Of a stretch of 64,000 nt of DNA, positions 14,571-54,472 are shown piece by piece. The stretch spans positions 62,001 through 126,000 of the forward strand of contig NZ_JARVZZ010000001.1 in the NCBI RefSeq assembly GCF_029846115.1, written 5' to 3'. Both the position numbers and the translations under genes were made by a program. A model generated the notes under the pieces. The model worked only from the letters and a program-made list of their open reading frames with translations. It did not search any database and had not been told where the DNA came from. The stretch is from Serratia marcescens (GTDB lineage Bacteria > Pseudomonadota > Gammaproteobacteria > Enterobacterales > Enterobacteriaceae). Position 1 is the stretch's first letter, and every line of letters begins with the position of its first letter.

Positions 14571-14596
14571 CAATAAGAAAAGAGGAAGGTTAACTT

Positions 14597-15721: not shown

Positions 15722-15768
15722 TGCGACGGGGCCCACGGGCCCCCTCCCCCTGACTTGTGAGGTTCTTT

Positions 15769-17217: not shown

Positions 17218-17258
17218 CTTTTTCATGCGCGGGGACGCCCGCGCTTTGGAGCCAATGA

Positions 17259-29510: not shown

Positions 29511-31154
29511 TTAATACAGCGTTTTCTGCGGCGGCCCGGCGAAAGTCAGCGGCCCGACCTGTTTCATGTCCACCTCGACCACCGACGGCCCCGGGTAGTT
29601 GATCGCCTCGGCCAGCACGCCGTTGAACTGCGACGCCGCGTCCACTTTCCAGGCTTTCAACCCCATCGCTTCGGCGACCTGGGTAAAGGCTGGCGTATGC
29701 AGCTCGTTGTAATACTGGCGCCCGGCGAAATACTTGTCCTGAATGCCGCGCATCACGCCATAACCGCCGTCGTTCATGATCAGCAGGGTGATATTCACCT
29801 GTTCCTGCGCCATGGTCGCCAACTCGCCCAGGCCCAGCGCCAGACCACCGTCGCCCACCAGCCCCACCACCTTGCGCTGCGGGTTGGCGATCGCGCTGCC
29901 GATGGCCATCGGCAGCCCCATACCGATGGCGCCCGCCAGCGAGTGAATGTTGCACAGCGGCGAGATCGCCCGGAACAGCCGGCTGCCCCAGACGCTGCCG
30001 GAAACGGTGATATCGCGTACCAACAGCCCGTCCTGCGGCAGCGCGGCGTCGATGGCGTCGTTGAGTTTGGCGTATTCGCCGGACTGCTGGCGCAGCACGC
30101 GCTCCGCCTGCTGCACCGCCCCCGCGATCTCGGCATCCCACTCGGCGTTGACCTTCTCGCCGGGGCTCAGCCGCGCCGCCAGCGCCGCGAGCAGCGCCGC
30201 ACAGTCGCCGTTGATCTGCTCATCGGCCAGATAGTTGCGGTTGGCCGCCGCCGGATCGATGTCAATCTGCACCAGCGGGCGCGGCAGCGGCAGCGTCCAG
30301 GTACGGGTTTCATTACTGCGCAGGCGCGAACCAGCCACCAGCGTCAGGTCGCACTGCGTCAGGATCGCTTCGATGCTCGGTGAATTATGGAACGCCCGCA
30401 GGCTGCGCGGATGGCTGTCCGGCAGAATGCCGCGCCCGTGGGTGCTGGAGATCACCGCCACGCCGGCGTCCGCCAGCTTGCGCACCGCGTCGCCGCAGGC
30501 CAAGGCGCCGCCGCCCAACCACAGCAGCGGACGCTTGGCCTGTTTCAGCCGCTGATGCAGCCGTTCCACCGCCGCATCGTCCGCCTTCGGCAACGGCGCC
30601 GGCGCCAACGGCTCGGTCAGCACCGAACGGGAAACCAGGCTGCTTTGAATATCGATCGGGATCTCGACCGCCACCGGGCCGCAGGGCACGGTTTGCGCAT
30701 CCAGGATCGCCCGCTGGATCACCGCCACCGCCTGCCCCGGCGAATTGACCCGGTAAGCGCGCTTGGAGCAGGCGCGCAGGAAGCCGAGCTGATCGCGGGT
30801 TTCATGAATAAAACCGGCGTCGGCGTCCAGATAGGCTTTTTCCACCTGGCCGGTGATATGCAGCAGCGGCGTGTTGGCGTTGAGCGCCTCAATCATCGCC
30901 CCCACCGCGTTGCCGGCGCCGGCGCCGGTGCTGGTCAAGGCTACGCCCAGGCCGGAGAAACGCCCGTGTGCGTCGGCCATGGTGACCGCCCCCGCTTCGC
31001 CGCGCGCCGGCACGAAGCGAATTTTATCGCGCTGCCCCACCGCATCGGCGATCGGCAGATTATGAATCGAAATGATGCCGTACATCGCCGACACCGCGTA
31101 CTGTTCCAGAGTCCGGGCTATCGCCTCGCCAACCGTGATTTTATCGCTCATCAT
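29511..31154 (-). CDS. Thiamine diphosphate-dependent enzyme, acetolactate synthase/decarboxylase-like
   Basis: 547 residues with the three-domain layout of the acetolactate synthase/benzoylformate decarboxylase superfamily. The conserved Glu that activates ThDP is E53 (ARGEAGAVTMADAHGR). The ThDP-Mg motif GDGGLALGLGELATMA ends in LLIMNDGGYG. The His common before that Glu in acetolactate synthases is Gly here, which argues against ordinary AHAS. It is last in the catabolic array, after an aldehyde dehydrogenase, so a 2-oxoacid decarboxylase is plausible. Two tandem ATGs (31154, 31151) are possible starts. Confidence 0.78.
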   Translation of the reverse strand: MMSDKITVGEAIARTLEQYAVSAMYGIISIHNLPIADAVGQRDKIRFVPARGEAGAVTMADAHGRFSGLGVALTSTGAGAGNAVGAMIEALNANTPLLHITGQVEKAYLDADAGFIHETRDQLGFLRACSKRAYRVNSPGQAVAVIQRAILDAQTVPCGPVAVEIPIDIQSSLVSRSVLTEPLAPAPLPKADDAAVERLHQRLKQAKRPLLWLGGGALACGDAVRKLADAGVAVISSTHGRGILPDSHPRSLRAFHNSPSIEAILTQCDLTLVAGSRLRSNETRTWTLPLPRPLVQIDIDPAAANRNYLADEQINGDCAALLAALAARLSPGEKVNAEWDAEIAGAVQQAERVLRQQSGEYAKLNDAIDAALPQDGLLVRDITVSGSVWGSRLFRAISPLCNIHSLAGAIGMGLPMAIGSAIANPQRKVVGLVGDGGLALGLGELATMAQEQVNITLLIMNDGGYGVMRGIQDKYFAGRQYYNELHTPAFTQVAEAMGLKAWKVDAASQFNGVLAEAINYPGPSVVEVDMKQVGPLTFAGPPQKTLY

Positions 31155-31203
31155 CTGCCTTCTTAAGGTATTCGTTATTAGGGTTATGCGTAGAGGTGTC
31201 GGC

Positions 31204-32673
31204 CTAGTCGCTCCAGCGGTTCACCTGATGGCTCAGCGCCAGATACACGCTTTTTTGCTGCATGTAGGCCTTGATGCCGTTCAGGCCCTTTTCGCGGCCC
31301 AGCCCGCTCTCCTTGAAACCGCCGAACGGCGTGGAAATCGAGAACGTTTTGTAGGTATTGACCCAGACGGTGCCGGTTTCCAGCCGCTCCGCCAGCGCCA
31401 TCGCGCGAGGGAAGTCGCGGCTCCAGATGCCGGCCGCCAGGCCGTACACCGAGTCATTGGCCTGTTCGATCAGCTGTTGCTCGTCGTCAAACGGCAACGC
31501 CACCAGCACCGGGCCGAAGATCTCTTCCTGGCAAACGCGGGCGTCGTTGTTCAAGCCTTCAATAATGGTCGGCAGGTAATAGCTACCGCTCGCCAGTTGC
31601 GGATCGGCCGGCGCTTCGCCGCCGATGATCACTCGGCCGCCCTCCTGCCGCGCCAGCGCCACGTAGTCCGCCACGCTTTGCCGATGTTTGGCGCTGATCA
31701 GCGGGCCGAGATGCACGCCCGGCACCAGCGGGTTGCCGATGCGCAACCCCGCCGTCAGTTCGGCCAAGCGCGCCAGCAGCGGCTGATACAGCGAACGATG
31801 CACGAACAGCCGCGAACCGGCGATGCACGCCTGGCCGGCGGAGCTGAAAATGCCGTAGCAGATGCCGCGCGCCGCCTGCTCCAGATCGGCGTCCTCCAGC
31901 ACGATGGTCGGCGACTTACCGCCCAATTCCAGCGAAGTGGGGATCAGCTTGTCGGCGGCGATGTGCGCCAAATGGCGCCCGGTACTGGTCCCGCCGGTAA
32001 AGGAGATCTTTTTCACCAGCGGATGGCGCGCCAACGCCTCGCCGATCACCGAACCTTTGCCCGGCAACACGCTGAGCAGCCCGGCCGGCAGACCCGCCTG
32101 TTCGAACAGCTCGGCCAGCTTCAGCGCCATCAGCGGCGTGGCTTCGGCCGGTTTGAGCACCACCGCGTTGCCCGCCGCCAACGCCGGCGCCACCTTCTGC
32201 ATTTCGCTGGCGATCGGCGAGTTCCACGGCGTAATGGCGGCGATCACACCCATCGGTTGATACTGGCTTAGCGTCATCACCTCGGCGCTGCGCGGGGTCG
32301 GCAGCTCGCCTTCCAACACCTCGCAGGCGGCCGCGAAGTAGCGCGCGGTCGCCGCCGCGCTGGCCACCAGCCCGCGGGTCTCCGCCAGCGGCTTGCCGTT
32401 GTCGCGGGTCTGCAGCTCGGCCAGCTGTTCCTGCTGCGCCAGAATCAGGTTGCTGACGCGGTAAAGGATCGAGGCGCGTTGATGCGGCACCAACCCACGC
32501 CATTCCGGCGCGCGCCAGGCGCGCTCCGCCGCTTCCACCGCCTCGTTCACGTCCTCGACGTTAGCGGCACGCAGCCGCGCGTTGACGCTGCCGTCGGCCG
32601 GGAATACCGACGCCATCTCTTCGCCACGCCCTTCACGCCAGCGCCCGGCGACAAAAATATTCAATCGTTCCAT
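31204..32673 (-). CDS. Aldehyde dehydrogenase of the catabolic array
   Basis: 489 residues of the ALDH superfamily. Visible: ITPWNSPIASEMQKVAPAL, SFTGGTSTGRHLAHI, catalytic Glu in SLELGGKSPTIVLEDADL, catalytic Cys in SSAGQACIAGSRLFV, and PFGGFKESGLGREKG. The start at 32673 follows AGGAGCGG; the alternative at 32697 would overlap the upstream gene. It probably oxidises an aldehyde made by the neighbouring ThDP enzyme or hydrolase; the substrate is unknown. Confidence 0.85.
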   Translation of the reverse strand: MERLNIFVAGRWREGRGEEMASVFPADGSVNARLRAANVEDVNEAVEAAERAWRAPEWRGLVPHQRASILYRVSNLILAQQEQLAELQTRDNGKPLAETRGLVASAAATARYFAAACEVLEGELPTPRSAEVMTLSQYQPMGVIAAITPWNSPIASEMQKVAPALAAGNAVVLKPAEATPLMALKLAELFEQAGLPAGLLSVLPGKGSVIGEALARHPLVKKISFTGGTSTGRHLAHIAADKLIPTSLELGGKSPTIVLEDADLEQAARGICYGIFSSAGQACIAGSRLFVHRSLYQPLLARLAELTAGLRIGNPLVPGVHLGPLISAKHRQSVADYVALARQEGGRVIIGGEAPADPQLASGSYYLPTIIEGLNNDARVCQEEIFGPVLVALPFDDEQQLIEQANDSVYGLAAGIWSRDFPRAMALAERLETGTVWVNTYKTFSISTPFGGFKESGLGREKGLNGIKAYMQQKSVYLALSHQVNRWSD

Positions 32674-32689
32674 GCTCCGCTCCTGCCGT

Positions 32690-33484
32690 TCAGGCAATAA
32701 AACCGCCGTCCACCAGACGGCGACAGGCTTGTACCGCGCTCAGCGCCGCCAGGGTTGATGTTTTGGGATTGCTCGCCAGCGGGGTGCCGCTCAGCTCGAT
32801 GTGAAATTCGCCAAAGTCGCCGCACACCTGCAGACGATGGGTATTGCGCCGGGTGGCGGGATCGACCTGCAGACGTACCCGGGTGGCGTCCATCCCCAGG
32901 CCGTTGAGCGCAATGGTGGCCGCCACGTTGGCATTGGCCGGGAACAAACGCGCCGCTTCGCGCGCCGACCCTTCGAAAAATACCTGCGCTTCGCTCACCG
33001 CATCGAGGTCGATCAACTGCTCCGCCGGGCTGCCGCGCCAGCTGGCCGGACTTTTGCTGGCCTGATAGGTCACGCTCTCCAGCCCGCCTTCGCGCGCCGA
33101 CGCCAGCCCATCCATCCCCGCCACCGCACCGGACAACACGATCAGCTGCCCGTGATGGCGGCGGCAAACCTGCTGCAGCCGCTGTTGCAATGCGGCGTCC
33201 GCCAGCGCGCCGGTCGAGATCAGCGCCAGCGGCCAACCGCGCTGCAGCACCGCTTCGCCGAACTCCGCCACCGCCTGTTGGCTGGCGCACTCCAGCACCA
33301 GATCCGGCCGCGGCAAACACTGCTCGGGATGGGTCAGCGCCTGCACCCGCCCGCCAAAGGCCTCGGCGATCGCCGCATGATGAGCCGCGCGCGCCAGGAT
33401 CCAACCGACCTCCACGCCTTCCGGCAAACGGGCGATCACTTCCTTCGCCATCGCGCCGTAGCCAATCATCATGATCTTCTTCAT
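32690..33484 (-). CDS. Aspartate dehydrogenase-like protein (NadX/DUF108 family)
   Basis: 264 residues. An N-terminal Rossmann fold (KKIMMIGYGAMAKEV) is followed by the DUF108 domain with NANVAATIALNGLGMDATRV and RRNTHRLQVCGDFGEFHIEL, typical of NadX-type L-aspartate dehydrogenases, which interconvert aspartate and oxaloacetate plus ammonia or feed iminoaspartate to NAD synthesis. There are no nadA or nadC genes here. Its place in a ring-oxidation array suggests a catabolic amine/2-oxoacid role instead. It lies 15 bases downstream of the SDR gene. Confidence 0.78.
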   Translation of the reverse strand: MKKIMMIGYGAMAKEVIARLPEGVEVGWILARAAHHAAIAEAFGGRVQALTHPEQCLPRPDLVLECASQQAVAEFGEAVLQRGWPLALISTGALADAALQQRLQQVCRRHHGQLIVLSGAVAGMDGLASAREGGLESVTYQASKSPASWRGSPAEQLIDLDAVSEAQVFFEGSAREAARLFPANANVAATIALNGLGMDATRVRLQVDPATRRNTHRLQVCGDFGEFHIELSGTPLASNPKTSTLAALSAVQACRRLVDGGFIA

Positions 33485-33499
33485 CTTTATCGGCCCCTG

Positions 33500-34294
33500 C
33501 TACACATGGCGGTTAAAACCGCCGGATACGTCCAGCGCCGCGCCGGTGGTAAAGGAAGCCAGCGGCGAAGCGAGGAACAGCAGCGCCTGCGCCGGCTCCT
33601 GCGGCTTGCCGAGGCGCTTCATTGGGATGCCGCGCCGTTCGGCGATCGCCGCCGTCCACTGCTCCCAGCTTTGATCTTTATCGCTGCGCTCGTCGAAACG
33701 GCGGCGCCACTGGCCCGACTCCACCATCCCCAGCAAGATCGAGTTAACGCGAATGCCTTTGCCCACCAGCTCTTTCGACAGCGTCAGCGTCATGTTGAGC
33801 AGCGCGGCGCGCGCCGCCGAGGTGGCGATCATGTGTTCTTCCGGCTGCAGCGCCAGCAGCGAGTTCACGCAAGTGATCGACGCGATCGTCGACCGTTCCA
33901 GCGCCGGTAAAAACGCCTGCACCGGGTTGATCACGCCGAACAGCTTCAGCTCGGCCTCATGCAGCCAGGCTTCGCGCGGCGTTTGGTCAAAATGGGCGAC
34001 GAAGCCCTGACCGGCGTTGTTAATCAGCAGATCCACGCCGCCGAAATGCGCCGTCACCTGGTCAGCGAACTGCGCCACCTGCTGCGCGTCCAGTACGTCG
34101 CAGCGCAGCGCCAGGATCTCCGCCTGCGGAAACTCTGCGCGCAGGCTGGCTGCTGCGCCGGCCAGTTTGTCCGGATCGCGGCCACAGAACGCCACCTTCG
34201 CCCCTTCGGCCAGCAGCAGCTTCAGGGTTTCGAAACCGATGCCCGACGAGCCGCCGGTCACCACCGCCACCCGATTTTCAAGCTGAAAATTCAT
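33500..34294 (-). CDS. SDR-family protein with altered catalytic motif
   Basis: 264 residues. The cofactor motif VVTGGSSGIGFE and NNAG are intact. In the catalytic region the usual YxxxK is replaced: the segment reads TSAARAALLNMTLTLSKEL where YSASKAAL is normally expected, giving T for Tyr and R for Lys. The following IRVNSILLGMVESGQW is otherwise typical. It either works by a different acid/base or is a non-oxidoreductase SDR. Start MNFQLENRVAVVTGG at 34294. It overlaps the upstream hydrolase gene by 4 bases (ATGA). Confidence 0.82.
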   Translation of the reverse strand: MNFQLENRVAVVTGGSSGIGFETLKLLLAEGAKVAFCGRDPDKLAGAAASLRAEFPQAEILALRCDVLDAQQVAQFADQVTAHFGGVDLLINNAGQGFVAHFDQTPREAWLHEAELKLFGVINPVQAFLPALERSTIASITCVNSLLALQPEEHMIATSAARAALLNMTLTLSKELVGKGIRVNSILLGMVESGQWRRRFDERSDKDQSWEQWTAAIAERRGIPMKRLGKPQEPAQALLFLASPLASFTTGAALDVSGGFNRHV

Positions 34295-35109
34295 CGTTGG
34301 ATTGCTCCCGTAAAGTCCCGCAGATAGCGGTTGAAACACCCCGGCGCGTCGAGGTAGCTGGCATGGCCGGCGGCGGCGATCAAACGCAGCGTCGCGTCCT
34401 GCTCACGCGCCAGCTCGGCCGCCTTCTCCGGCGGCGTAATGCGATCCTGTTCACCGCACCACACTTCCAGCGGGCCGCGATAGCGCGCCAGATAGCGGCC
34501 GATATCGTCGTTGGCCAGCATCCAGGCGGCACTCAGAAAACCGTCGGGATCGAGCTGCTGCATGCCGTTGCGCACCCAGGCGATATCCTGCGGATCCGCC
34601 CCTTCACGCAGCAAGGCCGCCGCCCGCTGCTCGCCGTAGCCCACCGGCCCCAGCGTCTCTATCATCTGTTGGCGCTGGCCATAGACCTGCCGACGTTTTT
34701 CCTCCGGCGCCGTGGCATAGCCCTGCGCCGGATCCGCCAACACCAATCCACATAACCCGTCCGGATAGCCGGCGGCATAGGCGCTGCCGATCAGCGCCCC
34801 CAGCGAATGGCCGACGATCAGCGGCTGCGCCAGCTGCAGCTCATCAATCAGCGCCGCCAACGCCGCCGCATAACCGGTGGCATCGGCCTGCGGATCCGCC
34901 AACGGCAGGCTGCCGCCGTAGCCCGGCGCGTCCCACGCCAGCAGACGGTGGCCGTCCGTCAGGCCGCTATCGTTGAGCTGCTTGATCCACGAGGCCGATC
35001 CGGAGCTGATGCCGTGCAGCAACACCACCGGCCGCCCCTGCCCGGCCTCGCGCCAGCTCAGGGTGTACGCCCCGCAGCGCGCGCGCTGGCGTTGCGCCAG
35101 GCCGTTCAT
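34291..35109 (-). CDS. Alpha/beta-fold hydrolase
   Basis: 272 residues. The oxyanion motif LLHGISSGSASW, nucleophile Ser in VGHSLGALIGSA, acid Asp in VWCGEQDRITPPE and His in AAGHASYLDAPG form a complete triad. The fold and order match carbon-carbon or ester hydrolases such as meta-cleavage product hydrolases. The start codon shares bases with the cupin stop (TGATG) and its stop overlaps the SDR start, so translation is coupled on both sides. Confidence 0.85.
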   Translation of the reverse strand: MNGLAQRQRARCGAYTLSWREAGQGRPVVLLHGISSGSASWIKQLNDSGLTDGHRLLAWDAPGYGGSLPLADPQADATGYAAALAALIDELQLAQPLIVGHSLGALIGSAYAAGYPDGLCGLVLADPAQGYATAPEEKRRQVYGQRQQMIETLGPVGYGEQRAAALLREGADPQDIAWVRNGMQQLDPDGFLSAAWMLANDDIGRYLARYRGPLEVWCGEQDRITPPEKAAELAREQDATLRLIAAAGHASYLDAPGCFNRYLRDFTGAIQR

Positions 35110-35633
35110 CAGTTGCGCTTCACTTTGGACAGCGGGTGATCCGCCGGGTAAGTCGGGATCTCCGGCTTGGCGGTGCCGAGCATCACGCACATCAGCGCCT
35201 CTTCCTCGCCGTGGTTGAACAGGCCGCGATACACCCCCGCCGGCACCGAGATCAGATCGCGCTCTTTCAGCCTGGTTTCGTAATACTCTTCGCCATCCTG
35301 GATCATCAGCGTGATGCTGCCTTTCAGCATGAAGAACACTTCTTCCACGTCGTCGTGCAGGTGCAACGGGCCCTCGCACTTCGACGGCAGCACCATGGTG
35401 GAGAAGGTGAAGTTGCCCGCCGGAATGGTGTTGGCGTCGCTGGCCACGCCGGTGGCGCCGGTACCGATGTAGCGCATCTGCGCGCGGCGGTATTTCGGGT
35501 CGAAATCGGCCTGAAATTTCAGCGCGTTCCAGTCGTATTTACGGCCTTCGAAACGCGCGATGCGCGACTCTACCCAATTTTCCATCGACAGATCCTGCGG
35601 CTTGACGCCGGCTTTGTTCTCAACCTGAGACAT
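35109..35633 (-). CDS. Cupin-domain protein
   Basis: 174 residues. One double-stranded beta-helix domain at about 75-165, with the metal-binding first motif GPLHLHDDVEEVFFMLKG (two His and a Glu) and a second-motif region ISVPAGVYRGLFNHGEE. Such cupins may be dioxygenases, isomerases or sensors; nothing in the sequence decides. The ATG at 35633 is preceded by AGAGGAGTG, a strong ribosome binding site, so it is likely the first gene of the second half of the array. Confidence 0.8.
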   Translation of the reverse strand: MSQVENKAGVKPQDLSMENWVESRIARFEGRKYDWNALKFQADFDPKYRRAQMRYIGTGATGVASDANTIPAGNFTFSTMVLPSKCEGPLHLHDDVEEVFFMLKGSITLMIQDGEEYYETRLKERDLISVPAGVYRGLFNHGEEEALMCVMLGTAKPEIPTYPADHPLSKVKRN

Positions 35634-35661
35634 GTTGTCACTCCTCTGTTGAATCAAATGG

Positions 35662-35782
35662 TTATCCCCTTCGTCTTTCACGCTGTGGCGTTGTTGGCTG
35701 CATTCGTTCGCACCAGTCACTTACCGCAGTAAGCTCCTGGAGACTCCCGAACTTGCCGCCTAGCCACAGCATGAAATCCATT
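35662..35782. repeat. Dispersed intergenic repeat, copy A
   Basis: This stretch between the cupin and MFS genes matches the reverse complement of 45902-46011 over most of about 110 bases. The shared core is GTTGGCTGC, CGTTC, CCAGT, ACTTAC and AGTAAGCTCCTGG. The core is an imperfect palindrome around CTTAC/GTAAG, so it can fold. Two copies in one window indicate an interspersed repeat family. No ORF was seen. Confidence 0.75.
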
Positions 35783-35801
35783 GGGCTTAGCAATTGTTAA
35801 T

Positions 35802-37058
35802 TCAGTACTTTCTTAGTAACGGCAGCAGAATGAGGCAGCCGACGAAAGCCATCACCACCAGGAACAGCAGGCCGTTATCCATATTGCCGGTGGCGGCGAT
35901 CAACGCCCCCATCAGCACCGGCGCCAGCGCGCCGGCAAAATTGCCCAACCCGTTGAAGATACCGCCGGCGGTAGCGCTGACCTTGCTGCTGGTCGCCTTC
36001 GCCAACAGCGCGAAAATATTCGGCGCACCGGCGCCCCACATAAAGGTGCTGAAGGCCATGGCAGCGATCACGCTGTAGGTGCCCTGCAGGTGCAGCACCA
36101 CCGCCAGACCGAGGCCGGCACCGCATAGCGACAGGAAGCAGGCCAGCGCGCGCCGATCCAGCTTGTCCGACAGCCAGGCGCCCAGCACTTCGCCGAGCAG
36201 CATAGCGATGAACGGCAGCGAAGAGAGGTAACCGGCATGCTCCAGATGAATGCCTTTCCCCTTGATCAGGTAGCTCGGCAACCAGCCGTTCATGCCCCAC
36301 AGGTAGGTCAGGAAGGCGATGTTGAACAGGCAGATCATCCAAAAGTGCGGGCTGCGCAATAGCTCTCGGCGATGCTGTTTGCGTTCGGACACCGCCGGCT
36401 TGGTCGCCGCCGCCGGACGCGCGACGTTCAGGTGGCGCATGCCGAACAGCACCAGCAACATCACCGGCAACGTCAGAAACGCCATAAAGAAGAAGGTGGC
36501 CTGCCAGTCGAAGGTATTGAGAATGTACAGGGTGACCGGGAAGCCAAGCGCGGCGCCCAGCGGCGTGCCGAGCAGCCACAGCATGGTGGCGCGCGCCTGC
36601 AGCTGCGGCGGGAAGGCCTGACGAATAATGGCGTAGGCCATCGGTAGCAGCGGCCCTTCGGCGATGCCGAGCAGAATGCGCAGCGTCATCATGGCGTGAT
36701 AGGAACGCACCATCCCCATCAACACCATCAGCACGCCCCACACCACCATCATGCCAATCAGTACCTTGACCGGATTAAGCCGATCGCCGATGCCGCTGAG
36801 CAGCATCGAGGAAATGCCGTAGGAGAACAGAAACGCGCTCATCAGCAAGCCCAGCCGCGCCGGGTCAAAACCGATCCCTAACGCCTGCTGAAACTCACTA
36901 TCGGAAAACAGCGCCGCGATGCTGATCTTGTCGAAAAACGCCAGCAACACGCAGGCAAACAGCGCGATCGGCACCGACCAGCGCACCCGCTGCTGCGGAT
37001 TTTCGGCAACGGCTTCCCCCGCCCGTCCAGCGCGGGCGTCAATGTCTTGCGTAGTCAT
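35802..37058 (-). CDS. MFS transporter, anion:cation symporter type
   Basis: 418 residues with 12 predicted helices. VPIALFACVLLAFFDKISIAALFSD and LRILLGIAEGPLLPMAYAIIRQ are typical of the ACS family that imports organic acids such as phthalates, glucarate and 4-hydroxyphenylacetate. The start at 37058 follows GGGAGCG. It lies within the catabolic array 23 bases after the ferredoxin reductase gene, so it probably imports the pathway substrate. Confidence 0.86.
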   Translation of the reverse strand: MTTQDIDARAGRAGEAVAENPQQRVRWSVPIALFACVLLAFFDKISIAALFSDSEFQQALGIGFDPARLGLLMSAFLFSYGISSMLLSGIGDRLNPVKVLIGMMVVWGVLMVLMGMVRSYHAMMTLRILLGIAEGPLLPMAYAIIRQAFPPQLQARATMLWLLGTPLGAALGFPVTLYILNTFDWQATFFFMAFLTLPVMLLVLFGMRHLNVARPAAATKPAVSERKQHRRELLRSPHFWMICLFNIAFLTYLWGMNGWLPSYLIKGKGIHLEHAGYLSSLPFIAMLLGEVLGAWLSDKLDRRALACFLSLCGAGLGLAVVLHLQGTYSVIAAMAFSTFMWGAGAPNIFALLAKATSSKVSATAGGIFNGLGNFAGALAPVLMGALIAATGNMDNGLLFLVVMAFVGCLILLPLLRKY

Positions 37059-37081
37059 AAAACGCTCCCGAGGTTCGGGCG

Positions 37082-38293
37082 TTATTTCAACGCCATCAAA
37101 GAAAACTCCGCATCCGCCAGCTGCTGCGGATCCAACACCCGGCCGCTCGCCAGCCAACGCTTGCCGAGCTTAATGGTGCGCGCGTCGTTGAACGCCACCA
37201 TCTGCACCAGCTGCCGGTCGGCGTTCAGCGTGAAGAACACCTGCGACTGCGGCGTGCGGCGCACCACATGGTGCACGCCGCCGCTCGGCACACCGAGGAT
37301 CTGGATATTGGCGTCGTATTGATCCGACCAAAGCCAGGCCACGTCGTCATACGGGGCGGCGAAGGCGTCGAGCATCGCGCAGGCGGTGCTAATGGCCTGA
37401 TTTTGCGCGTAGGCCCAAGACTGCAGGCACAGGCCAAGCGTCGGGTGGCGCGCCACGTCGCCGGCGGCGAAGATCGCCGGATGGCTGGTGCGCCCCTGGC
37501 CGTCGACCACGATGCCGGACTCGATCGCCAGCCCGGCGCTGCGCGCCAGTTCGAGATTCAGCTCGACGCCGATCCCCACCACCACCAGATCGAAGGCCTG
37601 CGGATCGCTGACTTCGCTGCCGATCCAGGCGGCGCCGTCGCGATCTTCCAGCGAGATCTCGCCGCAGCCGCACAGCACCGTGACGCCCTGCCGGCGATGC
37701 AGTTCGAGCAACGCTTGTGAGACGTCGGCGCCGACGCTGCGCATGCACAGCGCAGGCTGGCGTTCAAACACCGTCACCTCGGCGCCGAGACGGCGCGCGG
37801 AAGCGGCGATCTCCAGCCCGATCCAACCGCCGCCGACGATCGCCAGGCGACGGCAGCCCTGCAGGCCCTGCCGCAACCGGGCCGCATCGTCCCAGGAACG
37901 CAGCGTCATCACGCGCGGGTGCTGCGCCCAGGCGGCGCTCGGCACACGCGGCCGCCCGCCGGTGGCGATCAGCAACTGCTCGAACTGCAGCCGTTGCCCG
38001 TCGCTGAGCGTGACGATTTGCTGTTCTGCATCGATGGACTCGGCGCGCAGCGGGCGACGCCAGTCGATATTCAGCTCCGCCACCGCCTGTTCGCTGAACA
38101 GCCGGCTGAGGGGAGCCGCGGCATCCAGCAGCGCCGCTTTCGACAGCGGCGGCCGCTCGTAAAAATCGTAAGGTTCGTCGCTGACAACCGTCAGCCGGCC
38201 GCTGTAACCGCGGTCGCGCAGCGTCTTGGCCGCCCAGCCGCCGGCCTGACCGCCGCCGACGATGACGATGCCCGCGTGTTCCGGCCGGTTCAT
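37082..38293 (-). CDS. FAD-dependent ferredoxin reductase of a Rieske oxygenase system
   Basis: 403 residues, like BphA4/HcaD. FAD-binding IVIVGGGQAGGWAAKTLRDRG is at the N-terminus, the NAD(H)-binding second Rossmann IVGGGWIGLEIAAS at about 150, and ATHP-like IFAAGDVARHP near 270. It should transfer electrons from NADH to the Rieske ferredoxin at 42303-42620. Its start overlaps the VOC gene stop by 4 bases. Confidence 0.9.
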   Translation of the reverse strand: MNRPEHAGIVIVGGGQAGGWAAKTLRDRGYSGRLTVVSDEPYDFYERPPLSKAALLDAAAPLSRLFSEQAVAELNIDWRRPLRAESIDAEQQIVTLSDGQRLQFEQLLIATGGRPRVPSAAWAQHPRVMTLRSWDDAARLRQGLQGCRRLAIVGGGWIGLEIAASARRLGAEVTVFERQPALCMRSVGADVSQALLELHRRQGVTVLCGCGEISLEDRDGAAWIGSEVSDPQAFDLVVVGIGVELNLELARSAGLAIESGIVVDGQGRTSHPAIFAAGDVARHPTLGLCLQSWAYAQNQAISTACAMLDAFAAPYDDVAWLWSDQYDANIQILGVPSGGVHHVVRRTPQSQVFFTLNADRQLVQMVAFNDARTIKLGKRWLASGRVLDPQQLADAEFSLMALK

Positions 38294-39231
38294 AACGCCG
38301 CCGCCTTTTTATGCTGGCGGCGCGTGTCGTGATCGATGCCGCCCTCTACTGCCCATTCGGTGAAGGACACCAGCGAATGCTCCAGCTCGCGCGGCTGCCA
38401 GTTTTCCGTCAGATAATCGTCGTTGGTGTAGTACTCGAACGCACCGCCGGTCGGGCTGTTGACGTACCAGAAATAGGCCGAAGAGATCGGGTGGCGGCCG
38501 GGGCCGATAAAGGTGCTCCACTTCTCCTTGTTCATGGCGATGCCGCCGCCGATCACTTCGTGGATATCGCGCACGGTGAACGCCACGTGGTTCAGGCCCC
38601 GTGGGCGGTTCGGCAGCTTCAGCAGGAACAGGTTATGGTGGCCACCGCGCGCCTGGGTACGCAGGAAGACGGCGCGATCGATATAGCGATCGGAAACCTG
38701 GAAATCCAACAGCTCGCGATAGAAACGCTCGGTCGCCGCCAGATCCTCAACGAAGAACACCACGTGGCCGATGTTGATCGGCTGCGCCTGCGAATAGACC
38801 GGGCTGGGTTGATCGATGCGGCGCACGTCGCCCCATTGGTTGATCGGCGTGACCGGCACCTCGACCGCCTGCTGGCGGCTGACGACGAAGCGCAGCGTCA
38901 TGCCGTTGGGATCGAGGCATTCCAGCTCTTCCCCCACCTGACGGAAGCCGGGCATCAACGCCAAACGCGGCTGCAGGCGTGCCAGATCGGCGGGCGAGGC
39001 CACACCCCAGGTCATGCGGCGCAGGGTAGAACCGCCCTCAAACGCCGCAGGCAGCGCCGCGCTTTGCAACGGATGCAGGACGATCCGCGCCCCGCTCAGG
39101 GTAGTGAATTCGCGCTGCGGTTCGCCCCAATGTTGCGTGGCGGGTTGCAGGCCGAAGTCTTGCATGAATTTTTCACAGGTTGGCAGATCTTCGACGCCAA
39201 ATTCCAGTTTTTCGATTCCGATTACGCTCAT
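38290..39231 (-). CDS. Type I extradiol ring-cleavage dioxygenase-like (VOC) protein
   Basis: 313 residues in two VOC domains (about 1-120 and 150-275), the layout of BphC-like dioxygenases. The second domain holds the iron triad H156 (INIGHVVFFVEDL), H215 (LNHVAFTVRDI) and E266 (GGAFEYYTN). H199, H247 and Y256 sit at nearly the spacing of the catalytic second-sphere residues of BphC. It is therefore likely an active enzyme opening a catechol next to its hydroxyls. The substrate is unknown. Confidence 0.85.
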   Translation of the reverse strand: MSVIGIEKLEFGVEDLPTCEKFMQDFGLQPATQHWGEPQREFTTLSGARIVLHPLQSAALPAAFEGGSTLRRMTWGVASPADLARLQPRLALMPGFRQVGEELECLDPNGMTLRFVVSRQQAVEVPVTPINQWGDVRRIDQPSPVYSQAQPINIGHVVFFVEDLAATERFYRELLDFQVSDRYIDRAVFLRTQARGGHHNLFLLKLPNRPRGLNHVAFTVRDIHEVIGGGIAMNKEKWSTFIGPGRHPISSAYFWYVNSPTGGAFEYYTNDDYLTENWQPRELEHSLVSFTEWAVEGGIDHDTRRQHKKAAAL

Positions 39232-39340
39232 TGTTCAGCCTCACGTTCTCGCTGCATACGGTTTTCAGGCATGAGTGAACCCCGGCCCCTGTTTGCTACG
39301 GGCCTTATCCCTGCCTGAGTAAAAGAGTCGGTCCTGTCGG

Positions 39341-40135
39341 TTAGCCGACGTTGGCCTGCGGCGGCGCGCCGAGGAAGCCGGAAATTTTCTCCGCCGCGTC
39401 GCGCACTTCCATGCGCAGCCGCTCGCGATCCGCTTTCGGGATCTCATCGGACGGCACCATGATGCTGACGACCGCCTCGACCCGCTGCTCGCGGTTGAAG
39501 ATCGGGTAGACGATCGAGGAGATGCCGTGGCGGAAGAACGATTCGCCGATCACATAGCCGCGCGCTTTGTCTTGCTGCACCATCTGCCACAGCGTTTCGC
39601 GATCCGCCGGGGTGCCCGGCGCATTGCCCGGCAGCTGCGCGTCCGGATAAAGTTGTTCGAACTCGCTGCGGGTGGCGCTGGTCAACAGCATGCGCCCAAG
39701 CGAGGTTTGGTGTACCGGCAAGCGGGTGCCGACGCTGACCTGATTGATCTGCGAACCGGCGGCGCTGACGCGGGCAATGTAGATCACGTCGCGCCCGTCG
39801 CGGATCGCCAGATGGCTGCTGCACTGGCTGCGATCGCGCAGCTGCTCGATCACCGGCTGACCGGCCTGCGCCACGTCCAGCGACGCGATGTATTCGAAGC
39901 CAAGGCGCAGCACCTTGATGCCGAGCGCAAAGGTGTTGGTGCGCGGATTGCGCTCCAGGAAGCCCAGGTGCTCGAGCGTCTGCACCACGCGGTAAGCAGT
40001 GGCCTTCGGCATGTTGACCAGACGATGCAACTCGGCGAAGGTCATTTCCTTATGCTGCTCGCCAAACGCCAGCAGCAACTGCAACCCGCGATCCAGTCCC
40101 GGGATCAGATATTTACATGCTTGCTCGTCCGCCAT
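39341..40135 (-). CDS. IclR-family transcriptional regulator
   Basis: 264 residues. An N-terminal winged helix (MTFAELHRLVNMPKATAYRVVQTLEHLGFLERN) and a C-terminal IclR effector domain with GRMLLTSATRSEFEQLYP and GISSIVYPIFNREQRVEAVVSIM. It is encoded inside the array between the SDR and extradiol dioxygenase genes, and probably senses a pathway compound and controls the array through the GTTTC/GAAAC sites at 42643-42666. Start preceded by AGGAGCG. Confidence 0.9.
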   Translation of the reverse strand: MADEQACKYLIPGLDRGLQLLLAFGEQHKEMTFAELHRLVNMPKATAYRVVQTLEHLGFLERNPRTNTFALGIKVLRLGFEYIASLDVAQAGQPVIEQLRDRSQCSSHLAIRDGRDVIYIARVSAAGSQINQVSVGTRLPVHQTSLGRMLLTSATRSEFEQLYPDAQLPGNAPGTPADRETLWQMVQQDKARGYVIGESFFRHGISSIVYPIFNREQRVEAVVSIMVPSDEIPKADRERLRMEVRDAAEKISGFLGAPPQANVG

Positions 40136-40172
40136 GTTTCGCTCCTGCGCTGTGCGCCTGCCCTACGGGCCG

Positions 40173-40928
40173 TCAATTGAATACGAAGCCGCCGTTGACC
40201 GGCAGCAGTTGGCCGGTGACGAAATCCGCCAGCGGCGACAGCAGATAAAGCACCGTACCGTTCACATCGTCCGGGTGCTGCGCCCCGGCCAGCGCGCGCC
40301 CCTGCTCGTACAGCTGATGACGCTCGGCGGGGACATACTCGGTAGCCTCCACCCGCGTCAGGCCCGGCGCAATGGCGTTGACGCAGATGCCCTGCGGGCC
40401 CAGCTCGCGCGCCATCGATCTCGTCATCGCGATCAGCGCGCCTTTGCTGGCGACATAGGCCATCAGGCGCGGCGCCCCCCACAGCGCGGTGTCCGACGCC
40501 ACATTGACGATCTTGGCGTGCGGGTTGCGCGCCAGCAGCGGCACCGCCGCCTGGCTCACCAGCCAGGTGCCGCGCACGTTGACCTGCATCACCCGATCCC
40601 ACAGATCGATATCGTATTCCATCATGGTTTTGCCGCCGACGCCGGTCGCCAGCGCCGCGTTGTTCACCAGGCCGTCGATCCCGCCGCCTGCGGCGATCTT
40701 CTCGAACGCCGAACGGATCGAATCCGGTGACGCCAGATCGATCGTCTGCGTTTCCACCTGAGCGCCCTGCTCACGCAGCGCGGCGCCGCCCGCCATCAGC
40801 TCATCCGCCAAAATGTCGCACATCACCACCTGCGCGCCGGCCGCGGCGATGGCGGCGGCGAAGCTGTAGCCCAGGCCGCGCGCCGCGCCGGTGACAACAA
40901 TGCGTTTACCGTTCAGCAGGCCGTTCAC
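40173..40928 (-). CDS. SDR-family dehydrogenase, probable diol dehydrogenase
   Basis: 251 residues of classical SDR type. TGAARGLGYSFA binds NAD(P), NNAALATGVGG follows, and the catalytic Ser and YVASK motif are intact (SDTALWGAPRLMAYVASKGAL). It overlaps the Rieske oxygenase gene by 4 bases, the place expected for a cis-dihydrodiol or alcohol dehydrogenase acting on the oxygenase product. Confidence 0.87.
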   Translation of the reverse strand: MNGLLNGKRIVVTGAARGLGYSFAAAIAAAGAQVVMCDILADELMAGGAALREQGAQVETQTIDLASPDSIRSAFEKIAAGGGIDGLVNNAALATGVGGKTMMEYDIDLWDRVMQVNVRGTWLVSQAAVPLLARNPHAKIVNVASDTALWGAPRLMAYVASKGALIAMTRSMARELGPQGICVNAIAPGLTRVEATEYVPAERHQLYEQGRALAGAQHPDDVNGTVLYLLSPLADFVTGQLLPVNGGFVFN

Positions 40929-41971
40929 TGCGCCGCCTCGCGCTCGCGCAACGTCGCCAGCTGTTTCTGCGCTTCTTTCTGCATCATGCGGCGCAGGCGA
41001 GAAAGACCGACGTCGTGCTGATACAGATATTCGTGGCCGCGGGCATTAGGCGCCATGTTCTCAAGCACGATGCGATCCTGCTCAAGCACGTCCCAATGCA
41101 GCGACTCCAGGCGGTTGCGGTACATGAAGCGCCACATGTCGCGCTGCCAGTCTTTGACCTTACGGATGCGCCAGAAGAATACCCGGCAGTGATCCTTGTC
41201 TTCCGGCACCACCATGCCGATGATCCAGAAGTGACCACCCGGCCCGAAGCGCTTCTTGTACGGGATCGACAGGCGCATCCAATAGGCGCCGCTGCTGCCG
41301 AACTCCACCCAGTCGAAGTTGACGCCGATCTGGCCGTTTTTCTTGAAGATAAACCCGCTGTCGGTCGGCTCCAGCCCCATATCCGCCTTGCGATCCCCTT
41401 CCGCCATCGAGTGCGAGGAAGAGTGCAGGTAGGTGCCGTGCATCGGATCCATCACGTTTTCCAACGCGTACTGGTAGTTGCAGTCCCAGCTGGCGGTACA
41501 CAGGAAGTTGCTGTAAGCGGCTTCGTCCGCCAGCTCTTGCGGGAAAGTCAGCTCCGCCGGCGCTTCATCCGCCGTCACGCCGAAATAGAGGAACACCGCG
41601 CCATAGGCTTCTTTGGCCGGGTAAGAACGCAGGCATTTTTGGCCCACCAGCGGGCAGCGATCCACCGCCGGCACGTCTTTCACCGTCCCGTCGCCGCCAA
41701 CCTCCACCCCGTGGTACCAGCAGGCGATGCGATCGCCGAGATTCCACCCCATGGAAAGCCGCGCGCCGCGGTGCGGGCAGCGGTCTTCCAGCGCGTGGAT
41801 CTGGCCTTCACCGTCACGCCACACCACGATTTGCTGTTCCAGACGGGTGATACCGACCGGGTTGTTGCCTACTTCCCAGCTGGCCAGCACCGGATACCAC
41901 ATGCCGCGCAACCCCTGGTCAAGATAGTCCTGCAAGCTGTGTGCGGAGGATGATGTTGTGTTTACTGTCAT
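40925..41971 (-). CDS. Rieske non-heme iron oxygenase, catalytic subunit
   Basis: 348 residues. Rieske ligands C65, H67, C84 and H87 (CPHRGA and CWYHG). The mononuclear iron region reads ENVMDPMHGTYLH, giving bridging D175 and iron ligands H178 and H183. The DPxH pattern resembles carbazole- and chlorophyllide-type oxygenases rather than the naphthalene type, and no beta subunit is encoded, so an alpha-only trimer is likely. The start at 41971 follows GGGAGAAG; a longer frame from 41995 is less supported. The aromatic or heterocyclic substrate is unknown. Confidence 0.9.
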   Translation of the reverse strand: MTVNTTSSSAHSLQDYLDQGLRGMWYPVLASWEVGNNPVGITRLEQQIVVWRDGEGQIHALEDRCPHRGARLSMGWNLGDRIACWYHGVEVGGDGTVKDVPAVDRCPLVGQKCLRSYPAKEAYGAVFLYFGVTADEAPAELTFPQELADEAAYSNFLCTASWDCNYQYALENVMDPMHGTYLHSSSHSMAEGDRKADMGLEPTDSGFIFKKNGQIGVNFDWVEFGSSGAYWMRLSIPYKKRFGPGGHFWIIGMVVPEDKDHCRVFFWRIRKVKDWQRDMWRFMYRNRLESLHWDVLEQDRIVLENMAPNARGHEYLYQHDVGLSRLRRMMQKEAQKQLATLREREAAQ

Positions 41972-41991
41972 TGTCTTCTCCCGGATGCGGC

Positions 41992-42300
41992 TCAAAAACC
42001 GTTAACGTGAAGGAACTCGCGGAACGTCGTCTCATTCCACGGCTGGCCGCTGCGATCGAGCAGACGGCGCTCGTTCAACGCGCTGACGATCTGATCCAGC
42101 TCTTCCGCCCCCTGCTCGAAGATGGCTTCCAGCGCCGCCACCAGGGCGGTTTCGAAACCGTCCGGCACCCGAGCGCGGGTTTGCCAGATCACGTTGCGAA
42201 ATTGGCCCGGCTGGTGGATTTGGCCGTTGCCGCCTTCACGGGCCGGCGTCACCTGTTGGGTGTCCGGCAGCCAGGGATTGAAATCGGTGATGTGCTGCAT
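41992..42300 (-). CDS. Small protein with recombinase-like helix-turn-helix region
   Basis: 102 residues. The C-terminal half (ALEAIFEQGAEELDQIVSALNERRLLDRSGQPWNETTFREFLH) resembles the helix-turn-helix part of serine-recombinase C-terminal domains; the N-terminus (MQHITDFNPWLPDTQQV) is unlike known DNA-binding proteins. It has no catalytic domain. It lies between the ferredoxin and oxygenase genes, and its ribosome binding site GGAGGAG is embedded in the end of the ferredoxin gene, so it is translated with the enzyme components. Function unknown: it could be a regulator or an oxygenase accessory subunit. Confidence 0.75.
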   Translation of the reverse strand: MQHITDFNPWLPDTQQVTPAREGGNGQIHQPGQFRNVIWQTRARVPDGFETALVAALEAIFEQGAEELDQIVSALNERRLLDRSGQPWNETTFREFLHVNGF

Positions 42301-42302
42301 GA

Positions 42303-42620
42303 TTACTCCTCCGGGATAAAGGTGATCTGGATTTGGTTGTCGACCACCCGGGTGGGATAGGTTTGCAGATCGCGGCCGCCCGGCTCGCGCAGGCACTGGC
42401 CGGTGCGCACGTCAAACAACGCTTCATGCAACGGGCACTCAACCTTGCCGTCGTCTACAAACCCCTGGCTGAGCAAGGCATAAGCATGCGGGCAAACGTC
42501 TTCCAACGCGTAGTAGTTACCGTCGAGCAGGTACACCCCGATCTCTTTGCCTTCCACTTTGCCGGAAAAAGGAAAATCTTCTTTCACCTGAGACACTTCG
42601 CACACATTCTTCCAGCTCAT
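42303..42620 (-). CDS. Rieske [2Fe-2S] ferredoxin component
   Basis: 105 residues, a single Rieske domain with cluster ligands in CPHAYALLSQGF and CPLHEALFDVRTG. Length and sequence match BphA3/HcaC-type ferredoxins that carry electrons from the reductase (37082-38293) to the oxygenase (40925-41971). First gene of the array, with AGAGGAC ahead of the ATG and a palindromic operator just upstream. Confidence 0.92.
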   Translation of the reverse strand: MSWKNVCEVSQVKEDFPFSGKVEGKEIGVYLLDGNYYALEDVCPHAYALLSQGFVDDGKVECPLHEALFDVRTGQCLREPGGRDLQTYPTRVVDNQIQITFIPEE

Positions 42621-43018
42621 TGCTTTTGTCCTCTATCTGATTGTTTCATATATGAAACTCAGTTTCTTATTTAATACAGTCACTATAAGTCTGGCGAAAC
42701 TTTCGTCAAGCGAGCGGAACGGCAAATGTTAATGAAAAGTTGTTTAAAAATGACAAATGCGGGAAGGATCACGAAATCATGCACCGATATGAAAAACCTA
42801 TGTCAGTTGTGCGCTCTATCACTAATTTATGGCAAAAAATGCGTTGATTCCGACGATGCATTGCGCGTAAAAGTGTTTTCTCACTGTCTTTCACACCCTA
42901 TTTGATAACAATAAATTTACATCAATCGACCTTATCCCCCGCGTTTGTGCTAAATGGCATCCTCGGGTGAGTTTACTGCTGCCTGAATTCGTCAACCGCT
43001 CGCACTGAGGAATGCACC
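42621..43018. other. Divergent promoter region of the catabolic array and second MFS gene
   Basis: 398 AT-rich bases. Toward the array a possible promoter, TTCGCC (complement of 42693-42698) with 16-base spacing to TATTAA (complement of 42671-42676), would start transcription in the GTTTC/GAAAC repeat (42643-42666). Toward the MFS gene the last 150 bases are AT-rich and a GAGGA precedes its GTG start. No small gene supported. Confidence 0.55.
42643..42666. promoter_or_regulatory. Triple half-site palindrome, candidate IclR operator
   Basis: GTTTC-ATATAT-GAAAC (42643-42658) is a perfect inverted repeat, and GAAAC-TCA-GTTTC (42654-42666) adds a third, inverted half-site. IclR-family regulators bind GTTTCA/TGAAAC-like dyads. 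It sits 23 bases before the first gene of the array and over the predicted transcription start, a repressor position. Confidence 0.6.
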
Positions 43019-44260
43019 GTGCAACAACGTCAACGCTGGTTTGGGGTGATCGCCCTGCTGTTTCTGATCGTTATCGCCTATGCGGATCGGGTCAATATCG
43101 CCGTGATGTTGGTCAATCCCGACTTCCTGCAACACTTCCAACTCGGCGGCGACCGCGCTCACCAGGGCACGCTGATGACGGTGTTTTTGCTCGGCTACGG
43201 CCTGTCCGCCATGTTGCTGACGCCGTTTCTGGAAACGCTGATGGGTTACCGCCGCGCGCTGACGCTGAGCGTGGTGCTGTGGGCGCTGCTCACCGCCGCC
43301 TCGCCGCTGGCGGGATCGCTGATGCTACTGTGCGTGGTGCGCGCGCTGCTTGGCGTCAGCGAAGGGCCGCTGTTCTCGCTGAAGACCATGTACATCGGCG
43401 ATCATTTCTCCGCCGACGAGCGCGGCAAGCCCAACGCGGTCAGCACGCTGGGCGTTTCGTTGGGGCTGGTGCTCGGCTTTCCGCTGGTGAGTTTTCTGAT
43501 GGCGCACTTCGGCTGGGCGATGTCGTTTCACCTGCTGGCGCTGCTCAACCTGCTGCTGGGGTTGGCGCTGGTGCGGCTGTTCGTTCATCCCCTTGCTCTG
43601 TCTTCATCCTCGCGCCCAGCCGATCCGCAACCGGTGCTGAGCCGCGTTTGGCACACCTTTGCGCTGGCCTGGCGCACGCCGATGCTCGGCTGGATCCTGC
43701 TGATCGAGATCGCCACGCTCAGCTATCTGTGGGGCTCCAGCGCCTGGCTGCCGGCGTATCTGACCGATGAAAAGGGATTCTCCATCAAGCAGATGGGCTG
43801 GATGGCCGCGCTGCCTTTCATCGTCAGCATCGCCTCCAAATACCTCGGCGGCGTGTTGCTCGATCGTATCCGCCCTTATCAGGCGCCGCTCATCTTCGTC
43901 TGCGGCGGTTCAGCGACCGCGCTGTGCATCTATGGCGTGATGAACAGCCATCAGCTTGGCTGGATCGCCTTCTTCCTGCTGGCGGCCAATGCCTGTTGGG
44001 GCGCGCAGGGCGCAGCGATACCCACTCTACTGCAACATTATGCGCGGTCGGAGGCGGTCGGCAGCGCCTATGGGCTGATCAACGGCATCGGCAATCTATT
44101 CTCGGCGTTTGTGCCAATGGCGATGGGCATGGTGATGGCCAGCCAAGGCAAGGTGTCTTCAGGCTTTGCGGTGCTGATCGCCTCGCAGTTGCTGACGCTG
44201 CTGGCGGGCGGCGCACTGTTTGGCCGCATGTTGCTGGCGCGGCAGGTGAAGCGGGCATAA
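43019..44260 (+). CDS. MFS transporter, ACS type, divergent from the catabolic array
   Basis: 413 residues with 12 predicted helices. VIALLFLIVIAYADRVNIAVMLVNPDF and CVVRALLGVSEGPLFSLKTMYIG are ACS-family motifs. The GTG start has GAGGA 7 bases upstream. It is distinct in sequence from the array's own MFS gene, so the locus seems to have two uptake or uptake/export carriers sharing one control region. Confidence 0.86.
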   Translation: MQQRQRWFGVIALLFLIVIAYADRVNIAVMLVNPDFLQHFQLGGDRAHQGTLMTVFLLGYGLSAMLLTPFLETLMGYRRALTLSVVLWALLTAASPLAGSLMLLCVVRALLGVSEGPLFSLKTMYIGDHFSADERGKPNAVSTLGVSLGLVLGFPLVSFLMAHFGWAMSFHLLALLNLLLGLALVRLFVHPLALSSSSRPADPQPVLSRVWHTFALAWRTPMLGWILLIEIATLSYLWGSSAWLPAYLTDEKGFSIKQMGWMAALPFIVSIASKYLGGVLLDRIRPYQAPLIFVCGGSATALCIYGVMNSHQLGWIAFFLLAANACWGAQGAAIPTLLQHYARSEAVGSAYGLINGIGNLFSAFVPMAMGMVMASQGKVSSGFAVLIASQLLTLLAGGALFGRMLLARQVKRA

Positions 44261-44811: not shown

Positions 44812-44840
44812 AAAAAAACGACCCCCATACGATGGGAGCC
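44812..44840 (-). terminator. Terminator of speB
   Basis: Read from speB, CTCCCAT-CGT-ATGGGGG is followed by TCG and then a run of eight or more T. It lies about 30 bases after the speB stop and separates speB from the hok locus on the same strand. Confidence 0.8.
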
Positions 44841-44867
44841 GCTTTTTCAGCGAGGAGTGGCCTGGTG

Positions 44868-54425: not shown

Positions 54426-54472
54426 AGATCCTGCTTTGTCCGGGACGACGCAGCGCCGCCCCGGCTATCCGG

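Follow-up and report, generated by a model that had tools for sequence, protein, structure and literature searches.

A conserved Rieske oxygenase operon of Serratia marcescens and its possible role in kynurenate degradation

The gene array and the active sites of its enzymes

A 64-kb stretch of the Serratia marcescens chromosome (the window, meaning the whole of the DNA analyzed here) carries a compact array of 14 genes, all on the minus strand at positions 29511–42620, which runs from a Rieske ferredoxin gene (starting at 42620) to the gene of a thiamine diphosphate (ThDP)-dependent enzyme (ending at 29511). We discuss here whether this operon serves the degradation of kynurenate. A preliminary description of the same DNA had reported fourteen same-strand genes with short gaps and several overlaps. 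This was borne out, with junctions of −4 to +168 bases, four of them overlapping, except that the second of two major facilitator superfamily (MFS) carriers lies on the plus strand (43019–44260; PF07690), divergent from the array across a 398-base intergenic stretch (42621–43018, assigned to no strand) that, by its position, would be a divergent promoter region. MFS carrier 2 is a probable second uptake carrier, not a universal one.

Domain families were assigned with Pfam and NCBIfam profile searches, and for several genes, including those of the hydrolase, the cupin and MFS carrier 1, starts were chosen inside the longest open reading frames (ORFs). The array opens with a Rieske ferredoxin of the AndAb/HcaC type (42303–42620; PF00355, E 3e-21; NF041683 AndAb, 101 bits, below the cut-off of 150), a 102-residue "recombinase-like helix-turn-helix (HTH)" protein (41992–42300; PF20552, E 3.5e-21), a Rieske oxygenase alpha subunit (40925–41971; PF00355 and PF19112, i.e., Rieske and VanA_C) and a first short-chain dehydrogenase/reductase, SDR1 (40173–40928; PF13561, E 4.5e-54), whose gene overlaps by 4 bases with the oxygenase gene directly before it. 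These are followed by an IclR-family regulator resembling PcaR, PcaU and PobR (39341–40135; PF01614 and PF09339; TIGR02431, 165 bits, below cut-off), a type I extradiol dioxygenase of the glyoxalase fold (38290–39231; PF00903), a ferredoxin-NAD reductase of the HcaD/AndAa type (37082–38293; PF07992 and PF14759; NF042949, 320 bits, below the cut-off of 450) and MFS carrier 1, of the organic anion type (35802–37058; PF07690; TIGR00893, 173 bits, below cut-off). The remaining genes encode a cupin (35109–35633; PF07883), an alpha/beta hydrolase (34291–35109; PF00561), a second SDR, SDR2 (33500–34294; PRK07062; NF005468, 437 bits, cut-off 266), an aspartate dehydrogenase of the PRK13303 group (32690–33484; NF009828, 402 bits, cut-off 177) and, side by side, an aldehyde dehydrogenase (ALDH; 31204–32673; PF00171, E 5.5e-169; no NCBIfam cut-off reached in the best 25 of 44 matches) and the ThDP-dependent enzyme (29511–31154; PRK07064; NF005470, 821 bits, cut-off 495). 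All of the enzyme families named in the preliminary description were thus recovered; it had omitted the PF20552 protein and had counted one SDR instead of two. It had also called the Rieske system alpha-only, with its own ferredoxin and reductase, and indeed no beta subunit is found among the 14 genes.

Active sites were compared in alignments of 17–31 sequences that included the window's own, residue roles being taken from the known families. The Rieske ligands C65, H67, C84 and H87 and the iron-site residues D175, H178, H183 and D299 of the oxygenase are invariant (31 sequences); its nearest solved relatives are a putative phthalate 4,5-dioxygenase and a carbazole oxygenase. The extradiol enzyme, which is related to homoprotocatechuate 2,3-dioxygenase, keeps H156, H215, E266, H199, H247 and Y256 throughout (30 sequences), and the hydrolase its Ser-Asp-His triad of S102, D222 and H249 (27 sequences). 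Relatives of the hydrolase include BphD and, more weakly, the alpha-(N-acetylaminomethylene)succinate hydrolase 3kxp (E 2e-9). E53, GDG434–436 and N461 of the ThDP enzyme are likewise invariant (17 sequences). The aspartate dehydrogenase, alignable to the solved L-aspartate dehydrogenase 2dc1 (E 2e-34), has H216 and N186 invariant and K241 nearly so (30 sequences), and both its family and its catalytic histidine, which we take to be H216, place it with the L-aspartate dehydrogenases (NadX-like). The cupin has an invariant HxH..E motif (H91, H93 and E97; 28 sequences) and weak sequence matches, at E about 1e-3, with quercetinase and acireductone dioxygenase; in a fold comparison with a weak model (mean predicted local distance difference test score, pLDDT, of 64) seed globulins, oxalate decarboxylases, isomerases and others tied. 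The HTH protein, modeled as three helices (mean pLDDT 66), has no PDB relative at E 0.1. Its gene adjoins the oxygenase gene in most gammaproteobacterial and many betaproteobacterial loci, and the protein may be a regulator or a partner of the oxygenase.

Conservation of the array and of its enzyme set

Synteny was scored in named loci around the oxygenase gene, many of them from close relatives; 80 were collected and 4 were dropped as too short, leaving 76. The score counts 13 genes, ferredoxin to ALDH, at separate places, the ThDP gene lying beyond the reach of most loci. All 13 scored genes were present in 69 of the 76 loci and their order was kept in 68, so that the co-occurrence in order proposed as a check in the preliminary description was found for these 13 genes, and the conservation of the array is more than chance. 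A divergent homolog of MFS carrier 2 was found in 45 of the 77 named loci with sufficient reach. The seven incomplete loci are those of Symbiopectobacterium, one Halomonas in which only the IclR gene is absent, and five others. In Billgrantia, three Halomonas and Natronospirillum, other genes stand between or after those of the array, and part of the set is absent or beyond reach. The 21-kb Symbiopectobacterium locus (L093) yielded only the ferredoxin, the HTH protein and the oxygenase, possibly a case of operon decay in a symbiont.

Three of the Billgrantia and Halomonas loci (L095, L096 and L099) have extra ORFs between the reductase and IclR genes. The extras of L095 include a flavin adenine dinucleotide (FAD) monooxygenase, by Pfam, and an arylsulfatase-like protein, and apparent parts of a tripartite ATP-independent periplasmic (TRAP) carrier are among the extra ORFs of the group.

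The oxygenase shares 95% identity with a protein of Serratia plymuthica, and most Serratia loci fall at 92–98%. Leaving the window's own genome aside, 25 of 29 genomes of the genus encode it, and the four without it are reduced (1.5–3.6 Mb). At E 1e-80 it was detected in 15 of 139 genomes sampled from the window's family and in 69 of 150, 14 of 150 and 7 of 149 genomes of three other families; at E 1e-40 it was found in 15 of 398 genomes of a phylum sample. A class sample, which seems to be spread over rare families, gave 1 of 369 (E 1e-60), this being the window's own genome. The array is kept in many bacteria of gut, plants and soil; named relatives include Klebsiella, Enterobacter, Serratia, Acinetobacter and Caballeronia, and there was no match in E. 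coli by DNA similarity.

Farther away, 49 distant loci were compared, 9 from plasmid records and 40 from genomes (the DNA of L121 is identical to that of L186, so that at most 48 are independent). Ten core functions were considered: the oxygenase, SDR1, the extradiol enzyme, the cupin, the hydrolase, SDR2, the aspartate dehydrogenase, the ALDH, the ThDP enzyme and the IclR regulator. All ten were found at separate places (E 1e-4) in 25 of the 49 loci, and eight or nine in 11 more. Several of the remaining loci are truncated where the 20-kb stretches end; in one of these, L212, the absent genes were found just outside. The enzyme set, rearranged, occurs across gamma-, beta- and alphaproteobacteria and on a Streptomyces plasmid, an unannotated record in which tblastn found 9 of the 10 core functions. 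Named distant carriers are Caballeronia, Novosphingobium, Pseudosulfitobacter, Paracoccus, Nitratireductor and Acinetobacter. In the records of Pseudosulfitobacter, Paracoccus and Nitratireductor (Rhodobacterales/Hyphomicrobiales), the cupin is of a two-domain form and genes for an ATP-binding cassette (ABC) carrier are present. The enzyme set therefore stays together across lineages despite changes in order, which gives good support to the earlier proposal that the genes form a single pathway acting on an aromatic or N-heterocyclic compound.

The other ORFs of 56 loci were clustered loosely, some of them probably being wrong frames, and few members were profiled. Reductase-like ORFs, including one annotated as PDR/VanB, form a cluster that occurs in 15 of the 56, mostly where the ferredoxin-reductase of the array's own type was not seen.

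Kynurenate as the proposed substrate

Kynurenic acid, a tryptophan metabolite with neuroactive and immune-active properties, is broken down by bacteria through the "quinoline pathway" of Hayaishi, Kuno and Stanier (EC 1.14.99.2, 1.3.1.18 and 1.13.11.10), which was established with extracts around 1960. The classical route begins with 7,8-dioxygenation, diol dehydrogenation and 8,8a extradiol cleavage and continues with NADH-dependent reduction of the oxopropenyl chain, decarboxylation and aldehyde oxidation, giving 5-(2-carboxyethyl)-4,6-dihydroxypicolinate. We know of no genes that have been assigned to it, nor of any given to three of its EC numbers. By enzyme type, the operon holds one candidate for each of these six steps and little else, and the first six reactions agree in order and type. 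We hold with moderate confidence that the operon takes up and degrades kynurenate (4-hydroxyquinoline-2-carboxylate) by this branch of tryptophan breakdown.

Gene set, synteny and conserved catalytic residues were observed directly, and from them we infer the role of each gene. The ferredoxin, reductase and oxygenase would dihydroxylate the benzene ring of kynurenate at C7–C8, as a proposed kynurenate 7,8-dioxygenase, and SDR1 would re-aromatize the product to 7,8-dihydroxykynurenate as a cis-dihydrodiol dehydrogenase. The extradiol enzyme, a candidate 7,8-dihydroxykynurenate 8,8a-dioxygenase, would then cut between C8 and C8a to leave a pyridine bearing CH=CH-CO-COOH as its side chain, whose double bond SDR2 may reduce. 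For the dioxygenase with its electron chain, the diol dehydrogenase and the iron-type extradiol enzyme, both the types and the residues are those that a kynurenate pathway calls for, and the same is true by type of a 2-oxo acid decarboxylase followed by an ALDH. The ThDP enzyme would convert the 2-oxo acid to an aldehyde, and the ALDH would oxidize the 5-(2-formylethyl) intermediate to 5-(2-carboxyethyl)-4,6-dihydroxypicolinate. Names, though only names, of two of the pathway's intermediates appear in a table of PMC11364965, in the part of that source available to us.

The preliminary description had placed the genes in a meta-cleavage pathway. The upper enzyme types of such a pathway are present, and the Rieske system, diol dehydrogenase, extradiol dioxygenase and alpha/beta hydrolase are shared with the bph and hca systems. 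Unlike those systems, the operon has no beta subunit and no lower branch of hydratase, aldolase and acylating (acetaldehyde) dehydrogenase among its 14 genes; in place of the lower branch stand the ThDP decarboxylase, the ALDH, the cupin and the aspartate dehydrogenase, which argues for a kynurenate route rather than a bph/hca-like one. In particular, the kynurenate route needs a ThDP enzyme and an ALDH, which are out of place in a meta-cleavage operon. The lack of a lower branch among the 14 genes led us to reject a plain meta pathway of the bph type.

Beyond 5-(2-carboxyethyl)-4,6-dihydroxypicolinate we infer the last three steps as follows. The cupin might add O2 across C4–C5 of the dihydroxypicolinate to give N-(2-oxoglutaryl)-dehydroaspartate; the alpha/beta hydrolase, acting as an N-acyl enamine amidohydrolase, might cut the amide to release 2-oxoglutarate and iminosuccinate; and the aspartate dehydrogenase, as an iminosuccinate reductase, might yield L-aspartate, recovering the ring nitrogen. 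The ring opening balances when computed (C9H9NO6 + O2 + H2O = 2-oxoglutarate + iminosuccinate). In vitamin B6 (pyridoxine) breakdown, too, the pyridine ring is cleaved oxidatively and an alpha/beta hydrolase (3kxp, a distant relative) then hydrolyzes an N-acyl enamine; the difference is that a flavoprotein cuts the ring there and a cupin is proposed here. According to the portion of a review that we could consult (PMC11354673), pseudomonads convert kynurenic acid to glutamate, alanine and organic acids. These reported products could fit 2-oxoglutarate and aspartate, if the former were transaminated and the latter decarboxylated.

RidA, an imine/enamine deaminase, occurs in 5 of the 56 loci and is also annotated in L121. 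Near the Nitratireductor cluster, an aspartoacylase-family gene (L122, 23663–24670; PF24827) was seen in a single occurrence; an enzyme that hydrolyzes N-acyl-aspartate would match the intermediate proposed here.

That the operon is the first gene set for complete kynurenate mineralization, with a new end route of cupin cleavage at C4–C5, hydrolase and aspartate dehydrogenase, and that the core is widened in other lineages to xanthurenate and its sulfate or glucoside by a flavin monooxygenase, a sulfatase and a GH3 enzyme, is put forward tentatively and is on balance doubtful.

The riboflavin/lumichrome lum genes are the nearest analogue as far as the accessible passages of PMC12746152 go, since they too combine a Rieske system, an extradiol dioxygenase, a ThDP decarboxylase and a cupin in one N-heterocycle pathway. 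The lum pathway differs in its alpha-beta oxygenase, its xanthine-oxidase and P450 steps and its products, and the same passages contain no aspartate dehydrogenase. The preliminary description had not recognized the array as a described pathway. This holds for the genes within the literature searched, but the chemistry has probably been described. No assignment of these genes was found among the titles and abstract openings listed from the open literature, with subscription journals mostly outside the search; and a putative Pseudomonas aeruginosa relative, PA3504–3511, could not be found in the literature by locus tag. Genes of a presumed homologous Acinetobacter cluster are listed in expression tables, with no pathway named in the portions available (PMC5757984, PMC3758355 and PMC12892962).

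If the kynurenate reading is right, the pathway can be tested at once from these genes, and the capacity to remove kynurenate could be read from the genomes of gut, insect and soil bacteria. A defined function would then also fall to proteins whose annotation now goes no further than "aspartate dehydrogenase", "thiamine pyrophosphate-binding protein" or "recombinase-like helix-turn-helix".

Genome context lends support to the kynurenate reading, not proof. The window's genome encodes a tryptophan 2,3-dioxygenase at equivalog level (TIGR03036, 405 bits, cut-off 391), and none of seven Serratia genomes, which form one clade, has a kynureninase above cut-off. In the family sample of 139 genomes, the dioxygenase family occurs in 4 of 15 carriers of the oxygenase vs. 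2 of 124 non-carriers (Fisher 0.0012, but the four positive carriers look like near kin); nine non-carriers of this family were checked and none has the dioxygenase. For three other families (f39, f27 and f71), with genomes hand-picked from the listed matches, the figures are 30 of 32 carriers vs. 22 of 31 non-carriers (Fisher 0.022, uncorrected for kinship). Among dioxygenase-positive genomes of f27, 4 of 12 carriers are without kynureninase, and 9 of 10 non-carriers keep it beside the dioxygenase in a three-gene operon. In two kynureninase-less carriers (L215 and L216) the dioxygenase and formamidase genes lie side by side.

A number of observations weigh against kynurenate. No enzyme of the set, nor any close relative, has a known substrate here. 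Formamidase (TIGR03035) is above cut-off in none of eight Serratia genomes, so that on present models the kynurenine supply is incomplete, and 11 of the 15 family-sample carriers have no tryptophan 2,3-dioxygenase, in which case the substrate must be imported if the kynurenate reading holds. Kynureninase is above cut-off in 25 of the 32 carriers of f39, f27 and f71, and the ordinary route is therefore also present there; the difference in kynureninase between carriers and non-carriers of f27 does not reach significance (p 0.32). The operon contains no kynurenine aminotransferase, and linkage to kynurenine genes was seen in only 1 of 36 carriers, an alphaproteobacterium with dioxygenase and kynureninase genes about 9 kb from the cluster and unrelated-looking genes between. 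Two loci (L181 and L188, the latter with RidA) hold an oxygenase homolog without the rest of the set. The single-domain cupins shown have Arg136 at the canonical second-motif metal-ligand histidine, so that this form has not all four ligands of the canonical 3-His-1-Glu site; the alphaproteobacterial two-domain cupin retains that histidine in the alignment. Finally, the FAD monooxygenase and sulfatase-like genes that recur in other carriers are not explained by kynurenate alone.

These accessory genes bear on the alternative that the substrate is another fused N-heteroaromatic acid, such as xanthurenate (via an FAD monooxygenase), quinaldate or a quinoline or isoquinoline acid, with kynurenate at most an intermediate, which we judge rather unlikely. 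An FAD monooxygenase cluster occurs in 15 of the 56 loci (one locus being counted twice); its three profiled members resemble aromatic hydroxylases, and one of the three is also similar to 6-hydroxynicotinate and tropone monooxygenases. In 10 of the 56 there is a cluster that includes an arylsulfatase-like protein (the one member profiled, below cut-offs), and in Novosphingobium the ThDP gene has a GH3 gene as its neighbor. Xanthurenate 8-O-sulfate and 8-O-glucoside are known compounds, whose use would need such enzymes, and our best guess is that the accessory genes serve the entry of xanthurenate and these two conjugates. In addition, Serratia marcescens 2CC-1 reportedly grows on quinaldate via kynurenate. 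However, no FAD monooxygenase or sulfatase is found among the 14 Serratia operon genes, and no molybdenum hydroxylase for quinaldate was recognized among the recurrent neighbor clusters, most of which lack a profile identification.

It is less probable still that the operon degrades a carbocyclic or simple N-containing aromatic acid by meta-cleavage, with a BphD-like C–C hydrolase and with the aspartate dehydrogenase and the cupin in side roles (ammonia recovery and isomerization). The presence of BphD among the solved relatives of the hydrolase, the homoprotocatechuate-dioxygenase-like extradiol enzyme, and a cupin fold search that returns oxidases, decarboxylases and isomerases alike would all agree with this. 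It is countered by the missing hydratase, aldolase and acylating dehydrogenase; moreover, side roles would not demand that an aspartate dehydrogenase accompany the oxygenase in 37 of the 49 distant loci and the ThDP enzyme in 41 of them, with some of the others cut off.

Detoxification or conversion, short of full mineralization, of an aromatic signal from a host or plant, or a part in secondary metabolism, is very improbable. In its favor, many named carriers belong to animal- or plant-associated genera (a genus list with no enrichment statistic), and in the portions available Acinetobacter baumannii A1S_0954 and A1S_0956–0958, judged homologous by names and order alone, are up with mucin (PMC5757984) and A1S_0945, 0946 and 0956 are listed as biofilm-only expression (PMC3758355). 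Against it, the decarboxylase, ALDH and aspartate dehydrogenase imply recovery of carbon and nitrogen, and there are two organic-anion-type carriers. Homarine catabolism was also considered and rejected, with no matching operon among the literature matches listed and a gene set that speaks for a fused ring.

Other features of the window

Beyond MFS carrier 2 the array is flanked by agmatinase (speB) and arginine decarboxylase genes, and on the opposite side by loiP; the ORF at 26484–28478 on the loiP side is presumably tktA, judging by gene order alone. Two long plus-strand ORFs, 44832–45755 and 46355–48034, lie antisense to the agmatinase and arginine decarboxylase genes. Neither has an NCBIfam match and the first also has no Pfam match, and both are taken for chance frames in GC-rich DNA. 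No tRNA was found in the 64-kb window by ARAGORN.

At 12960–18224, on the plus strand, genes for a BCCT carrier, a Rieske/Ring_hydroxyl_A oxygenase, an ALDH and a 2Fe-2S-domain protein stand in a row. The row resembles an operon for the demethylation of carnitine or betaine, which we take to be cntAB-like. On the minus strand at 53628–56659, a TonB-dependent receptor gene adjoins that of an ABC ATPase, probably forming an iron-chelate uptake locus.

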